Notes: a model not told the origin generated them from the letters alone. Shown: positions 51,926 through 61,977, counted from the stretch's first letter. The stretch: DNA of 64,000 nucleotides from Phycisphaerae bacterium (GCA_035275405.1 DATEMU010000003.1:930001-994000), one strand, 5' to 3'. A program made the numbers and translations.

Positions 51926-54643
51926 ATGATGGTCTTCCCGGAGCGCATCCGCAGATCCCCGGTGGTCTTCTGCGCGGCACTCATCACGGTCGTGTTCGCT
52001 CGATCGGTGCGCGCAGATGATCCGCCAATGGGCGAGATCATTAGCGCGGGCGCAGCGCCATTCACCGAAACACTTGACGACATGATCGCCCGCGATGCGG
52101 CGAACGCGGAGGCACCGCCCGGCGAATCCGCCGGTGATCAGTTCTCAGACCAGTTGATCATCCCCCGGTATCAAGGCAATCCACCCCCAGACTCGGAAAC
52201 TCCCCCTGGATCGCCCGTTGATTCGCCCCCGCAATCGGATCCGGCCCAACTGATTCCACCCCTGCGATTAGCCCCTCCAGCGATTGGCGCGAGTTTCACC
52301 GGCCTTACGTTGCAGGACCAAATTGATAGCTTCGGTTCGGGCATCAGCCCGCCGGAGACGATGGGCGCGATCGGCCCCAATCACTTCGTGGAAATACTCA
52401 GCGGCTCGGTGGCGATCTACACGCGGACGGGCACGCGCCTGTCGCACGTTTCCTCCAACTCGTTCTTCGCCGTGTCCTCGGGCGGAATCAACTATCCGCG
52501 CAATGGGAGTCGTTCTCCACGCATCCTCTTTGATCGCCGAAGCAATCGCTGGTTTGCGTGCATACTCGAAGTCGGCGTGCAAGCTTCCAACAATCAACTC
52601 TTGTTCGCCGTCAGTCGAACCTCGGACCCCACCGGCACATGGGACAAGTACGTCATCCTGATCGGAGAGCCCATCGACGGGCCCATCAGCCATTTCACCT
52701 TCTATCCGACCATGGGCGTCGACGACAACGGCGTTTATTTCGGCGTAACGATCCTTGAAATCCCGGTGGCTACCTTTTTCTCAAAGATCGCGGCCACGCC
52801 CAAGGCGCCGCTGATCGCCATGTCGCCCAGCCTGGGAACCGTCACGCAGTTTTCGGACATCATCGACGTTTATTTGACGCCCCAACCCGCGCACAATCAT
52901 GACATCGTCCCCGCCAATGGGCTGGCCTGGTTCGTCGCCGCATCCGACTCCGCGCTGGCGAATATCCACTATCGTACGTTGATGTGGGTCGCGGGAGCGC
53001 CGGTATTAAGCGGCAACTCCATTCTTAGTACGGCCGCCTATGGCGACCCTGCATTGATGGACGCGCCGGCAAACGGCAGCGCCGTTCCCATCGAAACCGG
53101 TGATGACCGCATGCAGACCGCTGTGATCCGAAACAATCGGCTGTGGACGTGCCGAACGGTCGGACTCAATGGAAGCGGCGGCGCTTCGCCGGTGACTCGA
53201 ACCGGCGCCGAGTGGTACGAATTGAATGTCAGTTCGGCGGCGGCGTCGCTCGTACAGCAGGGTCGCGTTTTTGACAACGCCGCCAACGACCCGCGCTTCT
53301 ACTATTGCCCGTCGATCATGGTCAGCGGGCAGGGTCACGCAAGCATGGGTTTCTCCGGCTCAAAGTCAACGGAATTCGTCGGTGCGTATGCCTGCGGGCG
53401 ACTCGCAACGGATGCCGCGGGGACCATGAGCCCCGTGACGACCATCAAGAACGGCCTTGCGGCCTACCAGATCCTCGATGGCCTGAACCGTAATCGGTGG
53501 GGCGACTACAGCTACACCAGCCTCGACCCCAACGACGACATGAGCATCTGGACGATCCAGGAATTCGCCGCCGCGACGAACATCTGGGGAACCTGGGTCG
53601 CACAGCTTCGTGCTCCGCCGCCGGCGACGCCGGTCAGCACCAACCCACCAGCCCTGGGCGACGTCGCGATGACGACCGACATCATCCTGAATGCTTCGTC
53701 GAGCGCCGGGTCGGGCTTTTTTGATCCCGGTCCCGGCTTTCCCAATCGAATCGCCGTCAGTATCGACGGCTCGGATTTGGTGATTAACAGCGTGACAGTC
53801 AACAGCCCGACCCAGTTGACGCTCAACGTGACCGTTCCCGACAATCCGCTGTTTGGTATTTTTCCCATCACCGTGACCAATCCGGACGGACAGTCCGCGA
53901 CGTCGGCGTCGGGAATACTGGCTGTCCAGTGCGAAGCGGTCTCGCTGGCGATCACGCAGCAACCGGCCGATCATCTGTCCTGCGGCGGCGATACGATCAC
54001 GTTTTCAGTGACGGCCGTTTCCTCCACCCCCCGAACCTATCAATGGCGCAAGAACGGCGAGCCCATCAATAGCGCCACGCAGCCGAGTTACTCCATTGAA
54101 GACTCGGGTATTGACGACGCCGGCCAGTACGACGTGGTCATCACCAGTGATTGCTCGCAAGTAACGTCGCGGAAGGCCTCACTCGTGGTCATTCATCCCT
54201 TTATCGCGGGCAGCCCGGGTGAACTGACGGTAAAAACCTGCACGTTGATTACGTTTAGCGTGGTCCTGGAGGGTTCCCAAATGCTCTCCTACCAATGGCG
54301 AAAAAACGGTGAGCCGCTGGTCAACAGTGACCGCTTGGAAGGCGCCCAGGAAATTACCCTCTCCATTGGTCCGGTTTCCCGGGATGACGCGGGAGTCTAC
54401 GACGTCGTCGTGGAAACGGATTGCGGGGCCATGGTAAGTAATCAGGCCATCCTGGTCGTTCAGGGAAACACGAATCCCGAGGACTGTCCGCAAACGTCGG
54501 CGCAGGGAGTGGAGGAAATCTGCGCGCTGTGCGGGACCAATATGAGCCTTACCCTGACGTTATCGATCGCAGGATGGTGCGCCTGGCGTCGCCGCCACCC
54601 ACGGGGTTCGTCGAAAGCCCCACGCCGCGATCGAGAACCGTAA
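51926..54643 (+). CDS. Large exported Ig-domain protein 1 with Cys-containing sorting-like tail
   Basis: A 905-residue protein starting after GAGGAGAGG. A signal peptide (~1-30, ending VRA) is followed by an acidic/Pro-rich linker and a beta-rich domain of ~430 residues (SPPETMGAIGPNHFVEILSG...RWGDYS) resembling a beta-propeller. Then come an IPT/TIG-like domain (~565-670) and two Ig-like domains (~675-855), each with YQWRKNGE. The C-terminus is tripartite: Cys residues (ICALCGTN), a hydrophobic helix, then WCAWRRRHPRG. That layout is typical of C-terminal sorting signals and is shared with the next two genes. The N-terminal propeller resembles that of the third protein. Confidence 0.75.
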   Translation: MMVFPERIRRSPVVFCAALITVVFARSVRADDPPMGEIISAGAAPFTETLDDMIARDAANAEAPPGESAGDQFSDQLIIPRYQGNPPPDSETPPGSPVDSPPQSDPAQLIPPLRLAPPAIGASFTGLTLQDQIDSFGSGISPPETMGAIGPNHFVEILSGSVAIYTRTGTRLSHVSSNSFFAVSSGGINYPRNGSRSPRILFDRRSNRWFACILEVGVQASNNQLLFAVSRTSDPTGTWDKYVILIGEPIDGPISHFTFYPTMGVDDNGVYFGVTILEIPVATFFSKIAATPKAPLIAMSPSLGTVTQFSDIIDVYLTPQPAHNHDIVPANGLAWFVAASDSALANIHYRTLMWVAGAPVLSGNSILSTAAYGDPALMDAPANGSAVPIETGDDRMQTAVIRNNRLWTCRTVGLNGSGGASPVTRTGAEWYELNVSSAAASLVQQGRVFDNAANDPRFYYCPSIMVSGQGHASMGFSGSKSTEFVGAYACGRLATDAAGTMSPVTTIKNGLAAYQILDGLNRNRWGDYSYTSLDPNDDMSIWTIQEFAAATNIWGTWVAQLRAPPPATPVSTNPPALGDVAMTTDIILNASSSAGSGFFDPGPGFPNRIAVSIDGSDLVINSVTVNSPTQLTLNVTVPDNPLFGIFPITVTNPDGQSATSASGILAVQCEAVSLAITQQPADHLSCGGDTITFSVTAVSSTPRTYQWRKNGEPINSATQPSYSIEDSGIDDAGQYDVVITSDCSQVTSRKASLVVIHPFIAGSPGELTVKTCTLITFSVVLEGSQMLSYQWRKNGEPLVNSDRLEGAQEITLSIGPVSRDDAGVYDVVVETDCGAMVSNQAILVVQGNTNPEDCPQTSAQGVEEICALCGTNMSLTLTLSIAGWCAWRRRHPRGSSKAPRRDREP

Positions 54644-54710
54644 ACTCCCTTGCGAGCCCGAATCAGGTAATATTCGGGCGTGGGATCGCAATGGGGATTG
54701 CTAATTCAGT

Positions 54711-54742
54711 CGGATTTGCTAGAATACGGACCCGTGCGGAAG
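54711..54742 (+). promoter_or_regulatory. Possible promoter before the subtilisin-like gene
   Basis: TTGCTA and TAGAAT, separated by 16 bp, lie in a locally AT-richer stretch about 140 bases upstream of the start at 54876. The match is modest and untested. Confidence 0.3.
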
Positions 54743-54875
54743 GAGTCCCGCGCGACAATCTCTCGGGCGATCCAGGTGAGCCGATCGATTCCCCGGGTGA
54801 TGGGGTTCAAGGGCCGCTTTATGCGTCCTCACGCCGCGCCGCTATTCGCCAATTAACAACGGTAGAGGAGCCGTC

Positions 54876-57800
54876 ATGGAAAGCCGCTGGAGTTCGTGTG
54901 CCTTTGTTGGCATCGCTGTTTTGCTGGCCGCGGTCATTCGATTGCCCGCCGCCGAGCCGGCGCCGGTTGAGCGGTTCGGCAGAGCGGGATCCGTAAAGGT
55001 GAGGATTCCCAGATCCGCCTGGTCCCCGGACCGTCTCAGCGACGATGTTCGCCTCGTCGCGCAATACGACGGCTTCGTCGTGGTCGAAGCTCTGGTCGGA
55101 GCCGTGCCGGCCATCGAGGGCGCACAGATTCTGCACCGCGAGAACCTCGTACTGCTCAACGCCGGCCCGATCGACACGTCACGAAGCGAGGCCCGGCAAC
55201 TGCAACAGCCGCGGGGCGAGTTCGCCGGCCGGCGTCTCCACCTGGTCCAATTCGCCGCGCCCGTTCAGCCGGATTGGTATGCCGAGTTGGAGCAATCCGG
55301 CGCGAGGATCGTCACCTATATTCCGAGTAATACGTATCTGGTACTGGGCAATTCCCAGGAACTCGCGCGGATTCAAGCCTATGCGGACGGCGCCGCCCAA
55401 GTCCAATGGAATGCGGCCTACCTCGATGATTACAAGATTCATCCCGCGGCCCATCCGCAGACCGTCGCCCTCGACACGCCCCCTGGCGTCAACCGAATGT
55501 ATGCACTTCAACTCGTCACGGATCCTGTCGCGAACGCCGATACGTTGGCCGTCGTGGATCGACTCAAGACCGCGCCCATTCGCCAACAGTATGAATTTCT
55601 CGACTATCGAAACATCGTCGTCGAACTTTCCCCCGACGCGGTCCTCGACCTCGCCCGGCAGCCGGACATCGTTTCCATCTATCGTTACGAACCTCCCCGT
55701 AAGAACTGCGAGCGACAAAACCAGATTATTGCCGGGAACCTTACCGGCGCGGCGCCCTCGGGCCCCGGCTATCTCCCCTGGGTGCTATCCAGGGGATTCA
55801 CACAGGCCCAATTCGACGTCTCCAATTTCTCGGTGGACGTGACGGACAGCGGCATCGACAACGCCACCACGTCGCCGAACCACTTCGGTCTGTACGTCAC
55901 CGGGACACCCTCGAACGCCAGCCGCGTTACGTATGCGCGGCTCGTCGGCTCGCCAAACCTGGACAGCACGCTCCAGGGCTGCGACGGTCACGGCAACATC
56001 AACGCCCACATCATTGCCGGATACAGCAACGTCAACGGCTTTCCGTTTCAGGACTCCTTGGGATATCACTACGGCCTGGGCGTGTGCCCGTTTGTGCGGG
56101 TCGGTTCGTCGGTTATTTTTGATCCGAACCTTTTTACATCTCCGAATTACACCACCCTTCAATCGCAGGCCTACGCCAGCGGCGCTCGAATCAGCTCGAA
56201 CAGCTGGGGATATCAGGTCAATCTGGGGGCGTACAATTCCGACGCGCAGACCTATGACGCCCTGGTCCGTGACGCGCAACCGGCCGGGTCCGCCGTGCCG
56301 GCGGCCGGCAACCAGGAAATGGTTATTGTCTTCGCGAACGGCAACCAGGGTTCGGGGGCCCAGACGGTCGGTTCGCCGGCCACCGGCAAGAATGTCATCA
56401 GCGTCGGCGCCGCCGAAAACGTGCAGCCGATGGGGGCGTCGGATACATGCGGCTGGCCCGACTCGGCGGCGAACAACGCCAATGAGATCATCTTTTTTTC
56501 CAGCCGCGGGCCCTGCGCGGACGGCCGGAAGAAGCCGGACATTGTCGCGCCGGGGACCAAGGTCTCCGGCGGAGTCGCCCAGGCGCCCAACCCCGGCCCG
56601 AATGGCACCGCGAATGCGTGCTTCGACGGCGGAGGCGTGTGCGGCGGCGTCGGCAGCCTCTTTTTTCCAAGTGGACAACAGTTCTACACAACGTCGACAG
56701 GCACCAGCCATTCCTGTCCCGCCGTCGCCGGCGGATGCGCGCTCATCCGTCAGTTCTTCATCAATCAGGGCATGCCGGTGCCCAGCCCGGCCATGACCAA
56801 GGCCCTGCTCATCAACTCCGCCCGCTACCTGAACGGCACTGGAGCCGGTGGGAATCTCTGGTCCAACAGCCAGGGCATGGGAGAAATGCATCTCGGAGAG
56901 GCCTTCAATCGGGGAACCGCCACACAGACCATGTTCTATGAGCAGGACACGGTGAATCGGCTGTTTACCGCGTCCGGCCAGTCACACCTGTATGCCGGCG
57001 ATGTCGCCGACGTAACCAAGCCGCTTCGTGTGACGCTGGCCTGGACCGACGCGCCCGGTAGTACCACCGGCGCGGCCCACCGAAACGACCTTGACTTGAC
57101 GGTCACTGTTGGAGGAAACACTTATCTCGGCAACGTATTCACCCTGGCCAACTCCACGACCGGCGGCAGCGCCGATACGCAAAACAATGTGGAGAGCGTA
57201 TTCCTCCCGGCGGGAGTCAGCGGCACGTTGAACGTGACCGTCATCGCCACCAACATTAACTCGAACGGCGTCCCGAATCTGGGAACGGCAACCGATCAGG
57301 ACTATGCGCTCATCCTCGCCAATGTCATGAATTGCGCGCAAATTGCCATCGGCCCGACGGATTTGCCCGACGGCGTTACGGCGACCGCCTACAACCAGAC
57401 GTTGACGGCCCAGGGCGGGACGCCACCCGTGACGTGGTCGGTGGTTTCAGGCGCGTTGCCGACCGGCCTGACCCTCTCCAGCGGCGGTGTCATTTCCGGC
57501 GCGCCGGCATCCGCCGGCGACTTCGACTTCACCATCAGGGCGACCGATGACACGGGATGCACTCAAACGCGGAATTACTCGATCTTCGTTAATTGCCGTA
57601 TCGCGGGAGTGCCCGCCATCACGGCTCAGCCCGCGGACCAGGCGGCGTGCCAGAACGGCGCCGCCGCGTTTTCGGTTGCGGCCCAAAGCCCGACGCCGAT
57701 GACTTTTCAATGGCGGAAGAATGGCGTGGCGATCGGCGGCGCAACGCAATCCACCCTCCAGATCAGCTCGACGAGCGAGGACGATATCGGTGCGTACGAC

Positions 57801-58298
57801 GTCGTCATCCGCAATGAATGTTCGCAGGTCGTTTCGCAATCGGCGTCGCTGAGCATTGTGCAACCCGTTATCGCCGGCAACCCCGGCGAGTTGACCGTCC
57901 AGATGTGTAAGACCATTACCTACAGCATCCTCCCGAGCGGTCAACCTCCGTACACCTATCAGTGGCGAAAGGACGGGACGCCGCTGGTGGACGATGATCG
58001 CTACCATGGAGCGCAGTCCGAAACGCTCTCCATCGGCCCGGTCATCCGCACGGACTCCGGCGCGTATGACGTCTTGGTCACCACGGCCTGTGGAGAATTG
58101 CTGAGCGATGTGGCGGTGTTGGTCGTGCAGGGCACCACAAACCTCAACGATTGTCCGCAACAAGCGTCCCCCGCCAATTCGGGTGGCGTTCCCTGCGCGC
58201 AGGGCGTTTTGGGAATGGGCCTCATGCTCACCGCCTCGATCGTCGGCTGGAGCGCCTGGCGGCGCCGACGTCGATACCGCGAATGGGTCCAGCGGTAA
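54876..58298 (+). CDS. Exported subtilisin-like (S8) protease with Ig domains and sorting-like tail
   Basis: A 1140-residue protein with AGAGGAG before ATG 54876. It has a signal peptide, then a propeptide-like region to ~295. The S8 domain has Asp in VDVTDSGID (~322), His in GCDGHGN (~372) and Ser611 in GTSHSCPAVAG, so it is catalytically complete. It is followed by a jelly-roll-like domain (~675-815), a putative Ig/cadherin-like domain (PVTWSVVSGALPTGL, ~820-905), and two Ig-like domains with FQWRKNG / YQWRKDG. The C-terminus reads PCAQGVLGM, a hydrophobic helix, then WSAWRRRRR. It is probably exported and surface-retained through that tail. Confidence 0.85.
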   Translation: MESRWSSCAFVGIAVLLAAVIRLPAAEPAPVERFGRAGSVKVRIPRSAWSPDRLSDDVRLVAQYDGFVVVEALVGAVPAIEGAQILHRENLVLLNAGPIDTSRSEARQLQQPRGEFAGRRLHLVQFAAPVQPDWYAELEQSGARIVTYIPSNTYLVLGNSQELARIQAYADGAAQVQWNAAYLDDYKIHPAAHPQTVALDTPPGVNRMYALQLVTDPVANADTLAVVDRLKTAPIRQQYEFLDYRNIVVELSPDAVLDLARQPDIVSIYRYEPPRKNCERQNQIIAGNLTGAAPSGPGYLPWVLSRGFTQAQFDVSNFSVDVTDSGIDNATTSPNHFGLYVTGTPSNASRVTYARLVGSPNLDSTLQGCDGHGNINAHIIAGYSNVNGFPFQDSLGYHYGLGVCPFVRVGSSVIFDPNLFTSPNYTTLQSQAYASGARISSNSWGYQVNLGAYNSDAQTYDALVRDAQPAGSAVPAAGNQEMVIVFANGNQGSGAQTVGSPATGKNVISVGAAENVQPMGASDTCGWPDSAANNANEIIFFSSRGPCADGRKKPDIVAPGTKVSGGVAQAPNPGPNGTANACFDGGGVCGGVGSLFFPSGQQFYTTSTGTSHSCPAVAGGCALIRQFFINQGMPVPSPAMTKALLINSARYLNGTGAGGNLWSNSQGMGEMHLGEAFNRGTATQTMFYEQDTVNRLFTASGQSHLYAGDVADVTKPLRVTLAWTDAPGSTTGAAHRNDLDLTVTVGGNTYLGNVFTLANSTTGGSADTQNNVESVFLPAGVSGTLNVTVIATNINSNGVPNLGTATDQDYALILANVMNCAQIAIGPTDLPDGVTATAYNQTLTAQGGTPPVTWSVVSGALPTGLTLSSGGVISGAPASAGDFDFTIRATDDTGCTQTRNYSIFVNCRIAGVPAITAQPADQAACQNGAAAFSVAAQSPTPMTFQWRKNGVAIGGATQSTLQISSTSEDDIGAYDVVIRNECSQVVSQSASLSIVQPVIAGNPGELTVQMCKTITYSILPSGQPPYTYQWRKDGTPLVDDDRYHGAQSETLSIGPVIRTDSGAYDVLVTTACGELLSDVAVLVVQGTTNLNDCPQQASPANSGGVPCAQGVLGMGLMLTASIVGWSAWRRRRRYREWVQR
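57844..58100 (+). repeat. Nucleotide-similar Ig-domain segment, copy 1
   Basis: The last Ig-like domain of the protease gene is closely similar at DNA level to 61550-61790 in the third gene (shared stretches around ATCGCCGGCAA, CCCGGCGAGTTGACCGT and GATCGCTACCATGGA). The more diverged copy in the first gene shows this pair arose more recently or was homogenised by recombination. Confidence 0.7.
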
Positions 58299-58539
58299 GC
58301 GAGAATAGGTTCAAGACCTGTTAACTCCATCTCTCACGCGAGATTCATGAGGGGGAGGGAACGGGATTCTGCCTTGTCCCCCTTCCCGCAGCGTGGCAAA
58401 TAAGTTAGAATGGCTAATCGTGTGGCGGGGTTCCGCACGGCTGACTCTCGGGCGAACGACCGCTTCTGAATGGGTTTTCCCGGGCAAGTTCGTCGCCCAT
58501 CCCCGGCCGCAAATATGAGTCGAGCGGGAGGGCCATCGC

Positions 58540-61500
58540 ATGTTCTCGAAGGGGACCTGTCTTGTTGTGTCGACTTCCGCGTTCTTGGTGATCGCGTGCA
58601 GCCTGGGGGGCGTCGCTTCGGAAGCCGTTGCGACAACGCCGGTACTCAGTGAACCTTGCGTGCCTTCGGGCGGCTCGCAGTGCGGATTCGTTCCGGCTGG
58701 CGCGATCTCGCCGCCGATTTCGGATTCTTCCGGCGATAGTCAGACTCGAGAAGATCCCGATCTTCGTGCCCCTCCTCTGACCAACAGCTTTGAGGGAATC
58801 AACTTCGAAGAAGATGGCGCCAATACCGATTTTCTGCACATACCACCCGATCCGTGCGGGGCTGCCGGTCCAAACCACGTTGTGTCAGTCGTTAATTGCT
58901 CCATTGAGTGGTACACCAAAGATGGCAGCCTTGAGAATAGCCAACGGCTCGGCAGGAATTCGAGTACGGCGGCGGGCAGCTTTTTCGCTCCGGTCGCGCC
59001 GGTCAACAACACTTTTGATCCCAAAGTGATCTACGATCAGTACGACGGCCGCTTTGTGGTGGTTTCACTGGAACGACAGGACTTCGGGGCGGGCAATCCC
59101 TCCAACACGTCGCGCATCCTGGTGGCCGTTTCCGATGACAGCGATCCCAATGGTACATGGCGCGTGTCTGCTATTAATTCAAAAATCAACATAAGTGGTT
59201 CGGATTGCTGGGCCGATTATCCCGGTTTCGCCGTGGATGACAATGCGGTCTATATCACGAATAACATGTTCAGCTTTGGCAACAACGCATTTGGCGGAGC
59301 CCGGCTTTGGATCATTAACAAGACGCCTTTCTACTCCGGGGGGGCGATCGCCTTTACGGTTCACGATCCTCCCGGCGCCAGCGGACAGCAGGCCACGACG
59401 ATGCAGCCGGCGCACATGTTCGGCGCCGCACCGGCGGGCGTCGGTACCTTCCTTGTTCGTTATTCGGGATTCACTGAGGCCTCGATCGAGTCCTTGAGCA
59501 TCATCCGCGTGGATAATCCGCTCGGCGCCGTTTCATTCAACCACGAGTTCGTAGAGGCGGGTGATATCGACAACACTTCCTCCAGTTTTCCCGGCGTCCC
59601 CCAATCCGGAACGAGCACGACCATCGACGGCGGCGACCGGCGGGCGCTCCACGCCGTGTGGCGGAACAACGCCCTTTGGATGACGGCCTGCGTGCTCCCG
59701 CCTTCAGGGGCCGATGCGGGCCAGGTCACTGCTCATTGGTTCAAGGTCGACACGACGACGTTGTCGTCCCTGTCGATCGCCGATCAAGGGAATATCAGCG
59801 GCAACGATGTGGCGGCCAATGCCCACACTTTTTATCCGTCGATTGCAGTGAACGGCAATGGCAATATGGCCGTCGGATTCGCTCTATCGGCGGCAACCAT
59901 ATTCCCGGGCGCGTATTACACGGCGCGCGCGGCGGGCGATGCCGCGGGATCGGTACAGCCGACCGGCACCCTGGCCACAGGATTGGATTTTTATGTACGG
60001 ACTTTCGGCGGCGGCCGGAACCGCTGGGGCGACTACAGTGGAATCTCACTGGATCCCGCGGACGAATTGTCTTTCTGGATTTTCAACGAATACGCCCGGA
60101 CACGATCCCTCTTTCTCGGCGAGGACGGCCGATGGGGCACGCGGTGGGGCCAGGCCCCATTCCCCGAAAGCCGCCCGACCTGCACGATCGGCGCCCCTTC
60201 GCCCAGCGCGGTCTGTTCGGGCGGGACCATCGATTATCCAGTGACCTACGCCAGCGCCAATGGGCTGACCGTTAACTTGTTGGCCAGCAACGTAATCGTG
60301 AACAACATCTCTGGCTCAATCGGCGCCCTCGTTATGGTCCTGAACGGAACGACTGCCACGCCGACGGTAAGAATCACCGCCGCCGGCTCGGGGTCATTTT
60401 CCATTTCGATTGAGCCAGGTCGGGCCATGGACTCGGAGGGCCATACCGACACGGGTGCGACGGCGGGAACCGCCGTGACCGTCGCCGGCCCGCCGACGAC
60501 CGCGAGCGTGGGAACCCCTCAAAACATCTGCACCAATGGCACGTCCGCCGGCTTGGGCGGCAACACGCCCACCACGGGGACCGGCACGTGGTCGATCGTG
60601 ACCAGCGGCTTCACAGGCACCTTTAGCCCGTCGGCCACGACTCCCAATGCGACATTTACGCAGACCGGCGGTGGAACCGGTGACTTCGTGCTCCGCTGGA
60701 CCATTTCCAGCGCACCTTGTCCGCCGTCCATGGCCGATTTGTCAATGACGGCGGTTCCTTCGCCGGTGGCGTCCGTCGGTGGCCCGCAAACGATTTGCAT
60801 GGGGGGAACTACCGCCGGTTTGGGCGGCAACACACCCGTTAGTGGATCGGGTAGCTGGTCTGTAGTAAGCGGTGGAACCGGCATGTTCAGTAACAGCGCG
60901 AATCCTAACGCGACGTTTACCCATACGGGCGGCGTCGGGCCAGTTATCGCCCGCTGGACGGTTAGCGACCCCCCATGCAGTACCGGGGCCAATGTCGTCC
61001 TGACCATTGCCCAGCCACCAACGACAGCCAGCGTCGGGGGACCTCAGACGCTCTGCATTAATGGCACGACCGCCCCCTTGGGAGGCAATCAGCCGACAAT
61101 TGGAACCGGCATGTGGTCCGTGGTGAGCGGCGGTTCGGGAACATTCAGCCCCAACAACACGACCGGAAATGCCACATTCACCCAAATCGGGGGCGTAGGG
61201 TCCGGACTTATTGTCCTTCGCTGGACCATCTCGAACGCCCCCTGCACGGCTTCCGCTGCCGAACTGATCGTGACCGTGAACACCCCGGACCCGCCGACGA
61301 TCACCCTTGAGCCCGAGGATCAAGTCGTGTGCGCGAATGCCCCGGTGACCTTTCAAGTCAGCGCTGCCAGTCCAACACCCGTCACTTACCAATGGCGGAA
61401 GAACGGAGTCGCCATCGCCGGAGCCACCCAAAGTGCGCTGTCGATCAGCGCGGTGAATGAGGATGACGCCGGCTCATACGACGCGATCGTGAGGAATCAA

Positions 61501-61977
61501 TGCTCGCAAACTACTTCAGCGTCGGCATCGCTGGGTGTCTTCGGCGCCAAGATCGCCGGCAATCCCGGCGAGTTGACCGTGGAGAAGTGTAAGACCGTAA
61601 CCTACAGTGTCTTGCCGGAGGGTTTGCCGCCGTACACGTATCAGTGGCGAAGGGATGGCGCGCCGCTGTTGGACGACGATCGCTACCATGGATCTCAAAC
61701 CGAAACACTCTCCATCAGCACGGTCATACGAACCGACTCCGGCGCATACGACGTCGTCGTGACGACCGGATGTGGCGAGTTATTAAGCGATGCAGCCGTG
61801 CTGATCGTTCCAGGAAATACCGACCTCAGCGAGTGCTCGCCCACTGCGACGGGAGGCGAGGCCGGCGGAGCTCCCTGTGCCCAGGGCGTGCTGGGGATGA
61901 GCTTGAGCACGACGTTCTCGATCGTCGGCTGGGGCGCTTGGCGTCGTCGCAAGCGCTCGCTTGATAGTCTATGCTAA
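58540..61977 (+). CDS. Large exported repeat/Ig-domain protein 3 with sorting-like tail
   Basis: A 1145-residue protein after GGGAGGG. Signal peptide, then a ~480-residue N-terminal domain similar to that of protein 1 (DPCGAAGPNHVVSVVNC...NRWGDYSGISLDP), perhaps a beta-propeller. A linker domain (~545-645) precedes three ~85-residue repeats, each with Q(N/T)(I/L)C.(N/G)GT, LGGN.P, GTG.WS(I/V) and RWT(I/V)S..PC, similar to PKD/SprB-type adhesin repeats. Two Ig-like domains (YQWRKNG, YQWRRDG) follow. The tail is PCAQGVLGM, a hydrophobic stretch, then WGAWRRRKR. No enzymatic motif is seen; an adhesin or surface scaffold is likely. Confidence 0.75.
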   Translation: MFSKGTCLVVSTSAFLVIACSLGGVASEAVATTPVLSEPCVPSGGSQCGFVPAGAISPPISDSSGDSQTREDPDLRAPPLTNSFEGINFEEDGANTDFLHIPPDPCGAAGPNHVVSVVNCSIEWYTKDGSLENSQRLGRNSSTAAGSFFAPVAPVNNTFDPKVIYDQYDGRFVVVSLERQDFGAGNPSNTSRILVAVSDDSDPNGTWRVSAINSKINISGSDCWADYPGFAVDDNAVYITNNMFSFGNNAFGGARLWIINKTPFYSGGAIAFTVHDPPGASGQQATTMQPAHMFGAAPAGVGTFLVRYSGFTEASIESLSIIRVDNPLGAVSFNHEFVEAGDIDNTSSSFPGVPQSGTSTTIDGGDRRALHAVWRNNALWMTACVLPPSGADAGQVTAHWFKVDTTTLSSLSIADQGNISGNDVAANAHTFYPSIAVNGNGNMAVGFALSAATIFPGAYYTARAAGDAAGSVQPTGTLATGLDFYVRTFGGGRNRWGDYSGISLDPADELSFWIFNEYARTRSLFLGEDGRWGTRWGQAPFPESRPTCTIGAPSPSAVCSGGTIDYPVTYASANGLTVNLLASNVIVNNISGSIGALVMVLNGTTATPTVRITAAGSGSFSISIEPGRAMDSEGHTDTGATAGTAVTVAGPPTTASVGTPQNICTNGTSAGLGGNTPTTGTGTWSIVTSGFTGTFSPSATTPNATFTQTGGGTGDFVLRWTISSAPCPPSMADLSMTAVPSPVASVGGPQTICMGGTTAGLGGNTPVSGSGSWSVVSGGTGMFSNSANPNATFTHTGGVGPVIARWTVSDPPCSTGANVVLTIAQPPTTASVGGPQTLCINGTTAPLGGNQPTIGTGMWSVVSGGSGTFSPNNTTGNATFTQIGGVGSGLIVLRWTISNAPCTASAAELIVTVNTPDPPTITLEPEDQVVCANAPVTFQVSAASPTPVTYQWRKNGVAIAGATQSALSISAVNEDDAGSYDAIVRNQCSQTTSASASLGVFGAKIAGNPGELTVEKCKTVTYSVLPEGLPPYTYQWRRDGAPLLDDDRYHGSQTETLSISTVIRTDSGAYDVVVTTGCGELLSDAAVLIVPGNTDLSECSPTATGGEAGGAPCAQGVLGMSLSTTFSIVGWGAWRRRKRSLDSLC
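60475..61280 (+). repeat. Three tandem ~85-residue adhesin-like repeats
   Basis: Three units begin near 60490, 60760 and 61020. Each carries GG/GTPQ(N/T)(I/L)C, LGGN, G(T/S)G.WS and ends in LRWTIS or ARWTVS followed by a Pro-Cys. The repeat resembles SprB/PKD-like modules of surface proteins. Confidence 0.7.
61550..61790 (+). repeat. Nucleotide-similar Ig-domain segment, copy 2
   Basis: Counterpart of 57844-58100 in the protease gene; both end just before the sorting-like tail. Confidence 0.7.

Follow-up and report, generated by a model that had tools for sequence, protein, structure and literature searches.

MYXO-CTERM is the prototype of the cysteine-containing C-terminal sorting signals. 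The Myxococcus type always carries a Cys in its signature, whereas GlyGly-CTERM never does (PMC3237569). Cleavage of MYXO-CTERM by the CPBP protease MrtX requires this Cys, and the enzyme is described with E-E-x-x-F-R, H and HxxxN residues; MrtX was also co-expressed with a tail fusion in laboratory E. coli, and MrtJ belongs to a one-target cassette (PMC11980579). C-terminal sorting tags reveal the proteins that a bacterium puts on display, and every newly found tag is a pointer to an enzyme. Two further enzymes, MrtS and MrtA, are paired with Cys signals of their own (NCBIfam descriptions).

Architecture of the three proteins

The window, a 64,000-nucleotide stretch of DNA from a Phycisphaerae bacterium, lies on contig C3 (1.18 Mb) of a genome of 5.29 Mb in 19 contigs. 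Three tandem genes on the plus strand encode proteins with a recognisable signal peptide at the start of each. Reading frames and ends are as described in the original prediction, in which a Cys motif, a helix and an Arg cluster close all three exported proteins.

Protein 1 (905 aa, 51926-54643) comprises the signal peptide, an N-terminal domain in common with protein 3, a CoaZ-repeat-like stretch below cut-off, two Ig-like domains (about aa 676-846, 53951-54463; Pfam Ig_3/I-set and PDB matches) and the Cys tail. Protein 2 (1140 aa, 54876-58298) combines its signal peptide with a subtilase (S8) peptidase domain (aa 317-669, 55824-56882; PF00082, E 2.8e-46), He_PIG, two Ig-like domains found by domain search (57606-58130) and the Cys tail. 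In protein 3 (1145 aa, 58540-61977), the signal peptide is followed by the domain in common with protein 1, internal repeats, two Ig-like domains (61282-61803; Pfam Ig_3/I-set) and the Cys tail. The C-termini read EEICALCGTNMSLTLTLSIAGWCAWRRRHPRGSSKAPRRDREP, GVPCAQGVLGMGLMLTASIVGWSAWRRRRRYREWVQR and GAPCAQGVLGMSLSTTFSIVGWGAWRRRKRSLDSLC, respectively.

The tails were assigned by alignment and by the independent-profile test given below. That of protein 1 (EEICALCG...WCAWRRR, 54509-54640) has a degenerate motif with two Cys residues. Proteins 2 (PCAQGVLGM...WSAWRRRRR, 58191-58295) and 3 (PCAQGVLGM...WGAWRRRKR, 61873-61974) share their Cys motif. A pattern of C-A and G-W-x-A-W-R-R-R plus helix is common to all three in the alignment.

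The tail had been described as conserved while the N-terminal domains differ, and this description needs correction. The N-terminal parts of proteins 1 and 3 align with each other. Furthermore, pairwise alignments and Pfam Ig_3/I-set matches place two Ig-like domains (about 170 aa) directly upstream of the tail in all three proteins, which also have a linker in common. Since the Ig domains are common too, tail likeness among these proteins alone is a weak argument for a sorting signal, and is what would be expected from paralogy of a C-terminal module.

A tail family across the genome

Other proteins of the genome are already matched by a profile of the three window tails and have ends such as ACGTCAPGVFPVAGLLLPACIIGWRLRRRR. 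After iteration, the profile gives 57 matches at E<=10, and a 37-row version gives 42 at E<=0.001. The proteins bearing these tails are diverse, with SBBP/NHL beta-propellers, TSP3 repeats, a P-domain, DUF7453, subtilase and Ig proteins among them, and some 40 further proteins of the genome carry the tail but no Ig domains. Tail genes often stand in tandem runs (contigs C4, C7 and C15). Many unrelated exported proteins per genome with only the tail in common are the mark of a general Cys-containing C-terminal sorting class, and this is the picture found here.

The motif consists of an invariant Cys in C-[AG]-x-G, often as CGxCAxG or CCxxG, followed by one hydrophobic helix and an Arg cluster. 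Among 91 collected entries, which come from two alignments with some overlapping sequences and were partly gathered by similarity, the Cys lies within the first 12 residues in all 91 and a C[AG]xG-like motif is present in 90.

An independent profile, trained solely on 25 tails from genomes other than this one, was run against 2,044 C-termini from 0.86 Mb of C3. It places the window proteins at ranks 1-3 (E 6.6e-8, 3.4e-5 and 6.6e-5), with a mild circularity in that the training relatives were found with a profile holding window tails in 3 of its 37 rows. The next ranks are two Cys tails outside the training set and then, as the first entry unlike the tail, a PEP-CTERM at E 0.036; the best residue-shuffled control reaches E 0.29. 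The likeness of the window tails exceeds what chance or paralogy would give.

The same 0.86 Mb of C3, chosen regardless of tails, was scanned for proteins combining a signal peptide, a C-terminal helix and an Arg cluster. This returned six PEP-CTERM proteins, five proteins with Cys, three of these being true tails on reading, and three other candidates which look spurious. The tail count from the scan covers 0.86 Mb only and its filters are crude: two of the three window proteins were missed.

The case for a tail family beyond the window is strong, and the idea of a tripartite, sorting-type signal gains from the 42 tails on unrelated exported proteins as well as from the order-wide distribution. 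The two outcomes set against that idea in advance were a tail confined to the three paralogs and an exact match to a known CTERM model; neither holds for the window tails.

Distribution across the order

Of the 89 genomes of the order, 15 contain a match to the 37-row profile at E<=0.001 and 47 a match to a more diverse 33-row profile at E<=0.01; the model has 36 positions, and absence of the tail in a genome cannot be claimed from it. The best matches of weak-scoring genomes were read individually and proved to be genuine Cys-helix-Arg C-termini in 16 of 16 cases, e.g. DVCGAGLCGAGVAPLMPLTLMGLVGWRWCRRRR. Because these weak matches come from across the order, the tail is widespread in it. That two large families of the order are tail-negative was considered and rejected, as their weak matches are genuine tails once read.

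Other planctomycetes have Ig modules of this type too, mostly closed by dockerin-like repeats, e.g. GDVDGDGDVDLTDLSAFLAMF. Since the tail occurs without Ig domains, and the Ig module occurs elsewhere with a dockerin-like end, the two are separable both ways and the tail is a swappable module. Together, these sequence comparisons show a Cys-helix-Arg C-terminal signal, genome-wide and order-wide, on diverse proteins of exported type with unrelated other domains.

Search for the processing enzyme

A dedicated sorting enzyme was expected elsewhere in the genome, and none was found. The profile scan of genome and relatives delivered dozens of tails here and many related genomes with them, but singled out no co-occurring protease. 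The genome encodes ten CPBP-family matches, one exosortase and two rhomboids.

None of the ten CPBP proteins reaches the cut-off of the myxosortase models (MrtX/C/P, Mrt_core). The cognate CPBP myxosortase that goes with MYXO-CTERM is not seen in this genome, and a canonical myxosortase was rejected as the enzyme here because none scores over cut-off. Across the order, the Mrt_core cut-off is passed in one of 89 genomes, and no tail was detected in that genome.

Reciprocal best hits were used to trace the CPBP groups through seven further genomes with tails. For four of the ten proteins, no reciprocal ortholog turned up in them. Three of the seven lack group E (pepcterm_CAAX), and, one weak match aside, group D does not occur outside the window's family. 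All seven contain groups A, B and C, and six contain group F, whose absence in G088 is a possible detection miss. Group C is an ABC-permease fusion. The search for the Cys-reading enzyme is in this way narrowed to ten CPBP proteins, with four groups in all or nearly all tail-bearing genomes examined.

Group B (C12:527568-528452) is the leading CPBP candidate. The E-E-x-x-F-R, H and HxxxN residues are present, and among the sub-threshold similarities to MrtJ that of this protein is the highest (53 of 75 bits). Two tail genes are found near its gene, the closer one at a distance of 2.7 kb and separated from it by unrelated genes. Group B occurs in 86 of 89 genomes of the order; being order-wide, its distribution fits that of the tail but does not discriminate, and neither supports nor refutes a role as the expected enzyme.

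No recurrent protease was found in the tail-gene neighbourhoods. One syntenic locus has a recurring DUF362-like gene beside its tail genes, and in three genomes tail genes have a lipoprotein gene as neighbour.

Alternative explanations

The tail could be a plain anchor: following the positive-inside rule, helix and Arg cluster would keep the protein in the inner membrane, with no sorting enzyme and with the Cys incidental or in a disulphide. The anatomy of the tail alone is compatible with this, and so is the outcome of the enzyme search, where the Mrt_core survey, the rhomboids, the gene neighbourhoods and CPBP group B yielded no cognate enzyme. A plain anchor needs no conserved motif, yet the Cys stands beside the helix in each of the 91 entries, partly similarity-collected as they are, and C[AG]xG in 90. 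In these genomes, moreover, PEP motifs and an exosortase go with the very same design. We consider a plain anchor unlikely.

Processing by a rhombosortase-like rhomboid protease, as for GlyGly-CTERM, has a slim chance. Rhomboids are present in eight of eight tail-bearing genomes tested, but also in 14 of 14 control genomes, so that presence says little. One relative's tail reaches 14.8 bits against the GlyGly-CTERM cut-off of 15.5, whereas the GlyGly-CTERM signature is by definition without Cys (PMC3237569). One rhomboid gene adjoins a tail gene in G086; its orthologs occur in seven of seven other genomes tested, which leaves the adjacency in G086 isolated.

The genome's one exosortase is a strong match (C13:70218, 188 bits), and exosortases occur in 87 of the 89 genomes of the order, which would suit an enzyme cutting the tail as a Cys variant of PEP-CTERM. 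G001 and G002, however, two genomes of the same family that are 93-94% complete, have no PF09721 match and nevertheless contain one and five Cys tails, respectively, all read individually. Exosortase is therefore not required and was rejected as the sole processing enzyme. PEP tails, furthermore, exist separately in the window's genome, and the chance that this exosortase cuts the Cys tail is very slim. The putative Cys signal coexists with PEP-CTERM and is independent of exosortase.

Lastly, that the three tails are alike merely by recent duplication of a C-terminal module, made up of the tail and a pair of Ig domains and lacking any signal function, accords with the common Ig domains and linker but is refuted by the first ranks which other genomes' tails alone give them among 2,044 C-termini and by the domain content of the tail hosts (tails without Ig domains on about 40 other proteins, Ig modules without the tail elsewhere), and its probability is negligible.

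A possible Cys-CTERM pathway

We favour, with a probability of about 70%, the reading that the tail belongs, as a planctomycete representative, to the Cys-containing C-terminal sorting signals, of which MYXO-CTERM is the prototype, with lipidation, cleavage and surface attachment inferred. The mechanism is transferred from MYXO-CTERM by analogy. The tail protein would be exported by Sec, and the tail helix would hold it in the inner membrane with the Arg side cytoplasmic. The tail Cys would then be modified, and following the proposal for MYXO-CTERM this would most likely be a lipidation. Cleavage just after the Cys would fall to an intramembrane endopeptidase, for which the CPBP (glutamic, Rce1-like) family is the likeliest source, and would strip off both helix and Arg cluster. 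The mature product, whether an adhesin-like Ig or propeller protein or a subtilase, would be kept on the cell surface through its lipid.

More tentatively, and at somewhat less than even odds, we propose a planctomycete Cys-CTERM pathway without a recognised myxosortase. Its reader would fall outside the myxosortase models known so far, whether it belongs to a diverged CPBP group or is a membrane enzyme of another kind, and the pathway would run parallel to, and independent of, PEP-CTERM and exosortase.

Two tag systems, PEP and Cys, stand side by side in one genome. The tag names about forty surface-protein candidates in a single planctomycete, and more across the order, in a group with an unusual envelope.

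Comparison with known systems

The three window tails score above the cut-off of no NCBIfam CTERM model, and the MYXO-CTERM models do not match them at all. The statement that they match no signal that can be named is not borne out in that form: although they pass no curated model, their kind can be named, since they are MYXO-CTERM-like and some relatives pass TIGR03382 or TIGR03901. Of 33 diverse tails, 12 match TIGR03382 at E<=10. Its cut-off of 15.85 bits is passed by a few relatives' tails (18.3, 19.9, 16.1 and 21.4 bits) and by one tail of this genome (16.5 bits), and one relative's tail reaches 20.0 bits with TIGR03901 (cut-off 20). This is a minority, and most tails of this genome score below the MYXO-CTERM cut-off.

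Among the other models, PEP_CTERM weakly matches three members in A5, the one shown having 15.1 bits against a cut-off of 16. The Cys tails have the tripartite design of PEP-CTERM, with which they coexist in this genome. In contrast to PEP-CTERM, they have no PEP-type motif and are not restricted to exosortase-encoding genomes. With GlyGly-CTERM they have in common a Gly-rich motif, a helix and a basic end, and a single relative's tail falls just below the cut-off of that model; they differ in the Cys found in all collected tails, which the GlyGly-CTERM signature never has (PMC3237569).

JDVT-CTERM, Synerg-CTERM and CGP-CTERM, with the CPBP-type enzymes MrtJ, MrtS and MrtA, are likewise tripartite signals containing Cys. 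Tails here occasionally score with their models, always sub-threshold. The best CPBP candidate resembles both MrtJ (53 bits, cut-off 75) and MrtS (40 bits, cut-off 130). Unlike the one-target cassette of MrtJ (PMC11980579), the system here has many targets per genome.

The closest likeness is to MYXO-CTERM (TIGR03901, TIGR03382; MrtX/MrtC/MrtP). Its tripartite layout recurs here: a short motif that always includes a Cys, then a single helix, then an Arg cluster at the C-terminus, with dozens of such tails per genome on exported proteins. It differs in that the planctomycete motif is typically C-G-x-C-A-[PQ]-G-V, in that the myxosortase models find nothing above cut-off in this genome, and in phylum, Planctomycetota instead of Myxococcota. 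Although not MYXO-CTERM by model membership, the window tails appear, by kind, to be Cys-containing signals of the MYXO-CTERM sort.

Candidate processing enzymes

Among the 89 genomes of the order, a single protein of the CPBP membrane protease family exceeded the cut-off of the myxosortase-core model Mrt_core (locus L135, 116.6 bits; G004, contig C80, 28759-29064). A search of G004 for the Cys tail, the putative MYXO-CTERM-like sorting signal, detected none. An exosortase match was found in 87 of the 89 genomes and was absent from G001 and G002, two Cys-tail-carrying members of one family in which the PEP-CTERM system has apparently been lost.

Genomic context of the tail genes

In the genome of the window, Cys-tail genes encoding TSP3 and beta-propeller proteins form tandem runs at roughly 91-109 kb of contig C4, 275-291 kb of C7 and 80-88 kb of C15, covered by loci L064-L067 and L069; these runs likely mark a site where genes have been duplicated repeatedly. 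In three genomes (L069, L120, L125), tail genes are adjoined by a gene which we take to be DUF362-like, and together these probably constitute a single syntenic locus. In other planctomycetes, Ig modules resembling the ones in the window proteins terminate in dockerin-like repeats (L198 on CP054190.1, L195, L197, L203, L205, L227 and L244).
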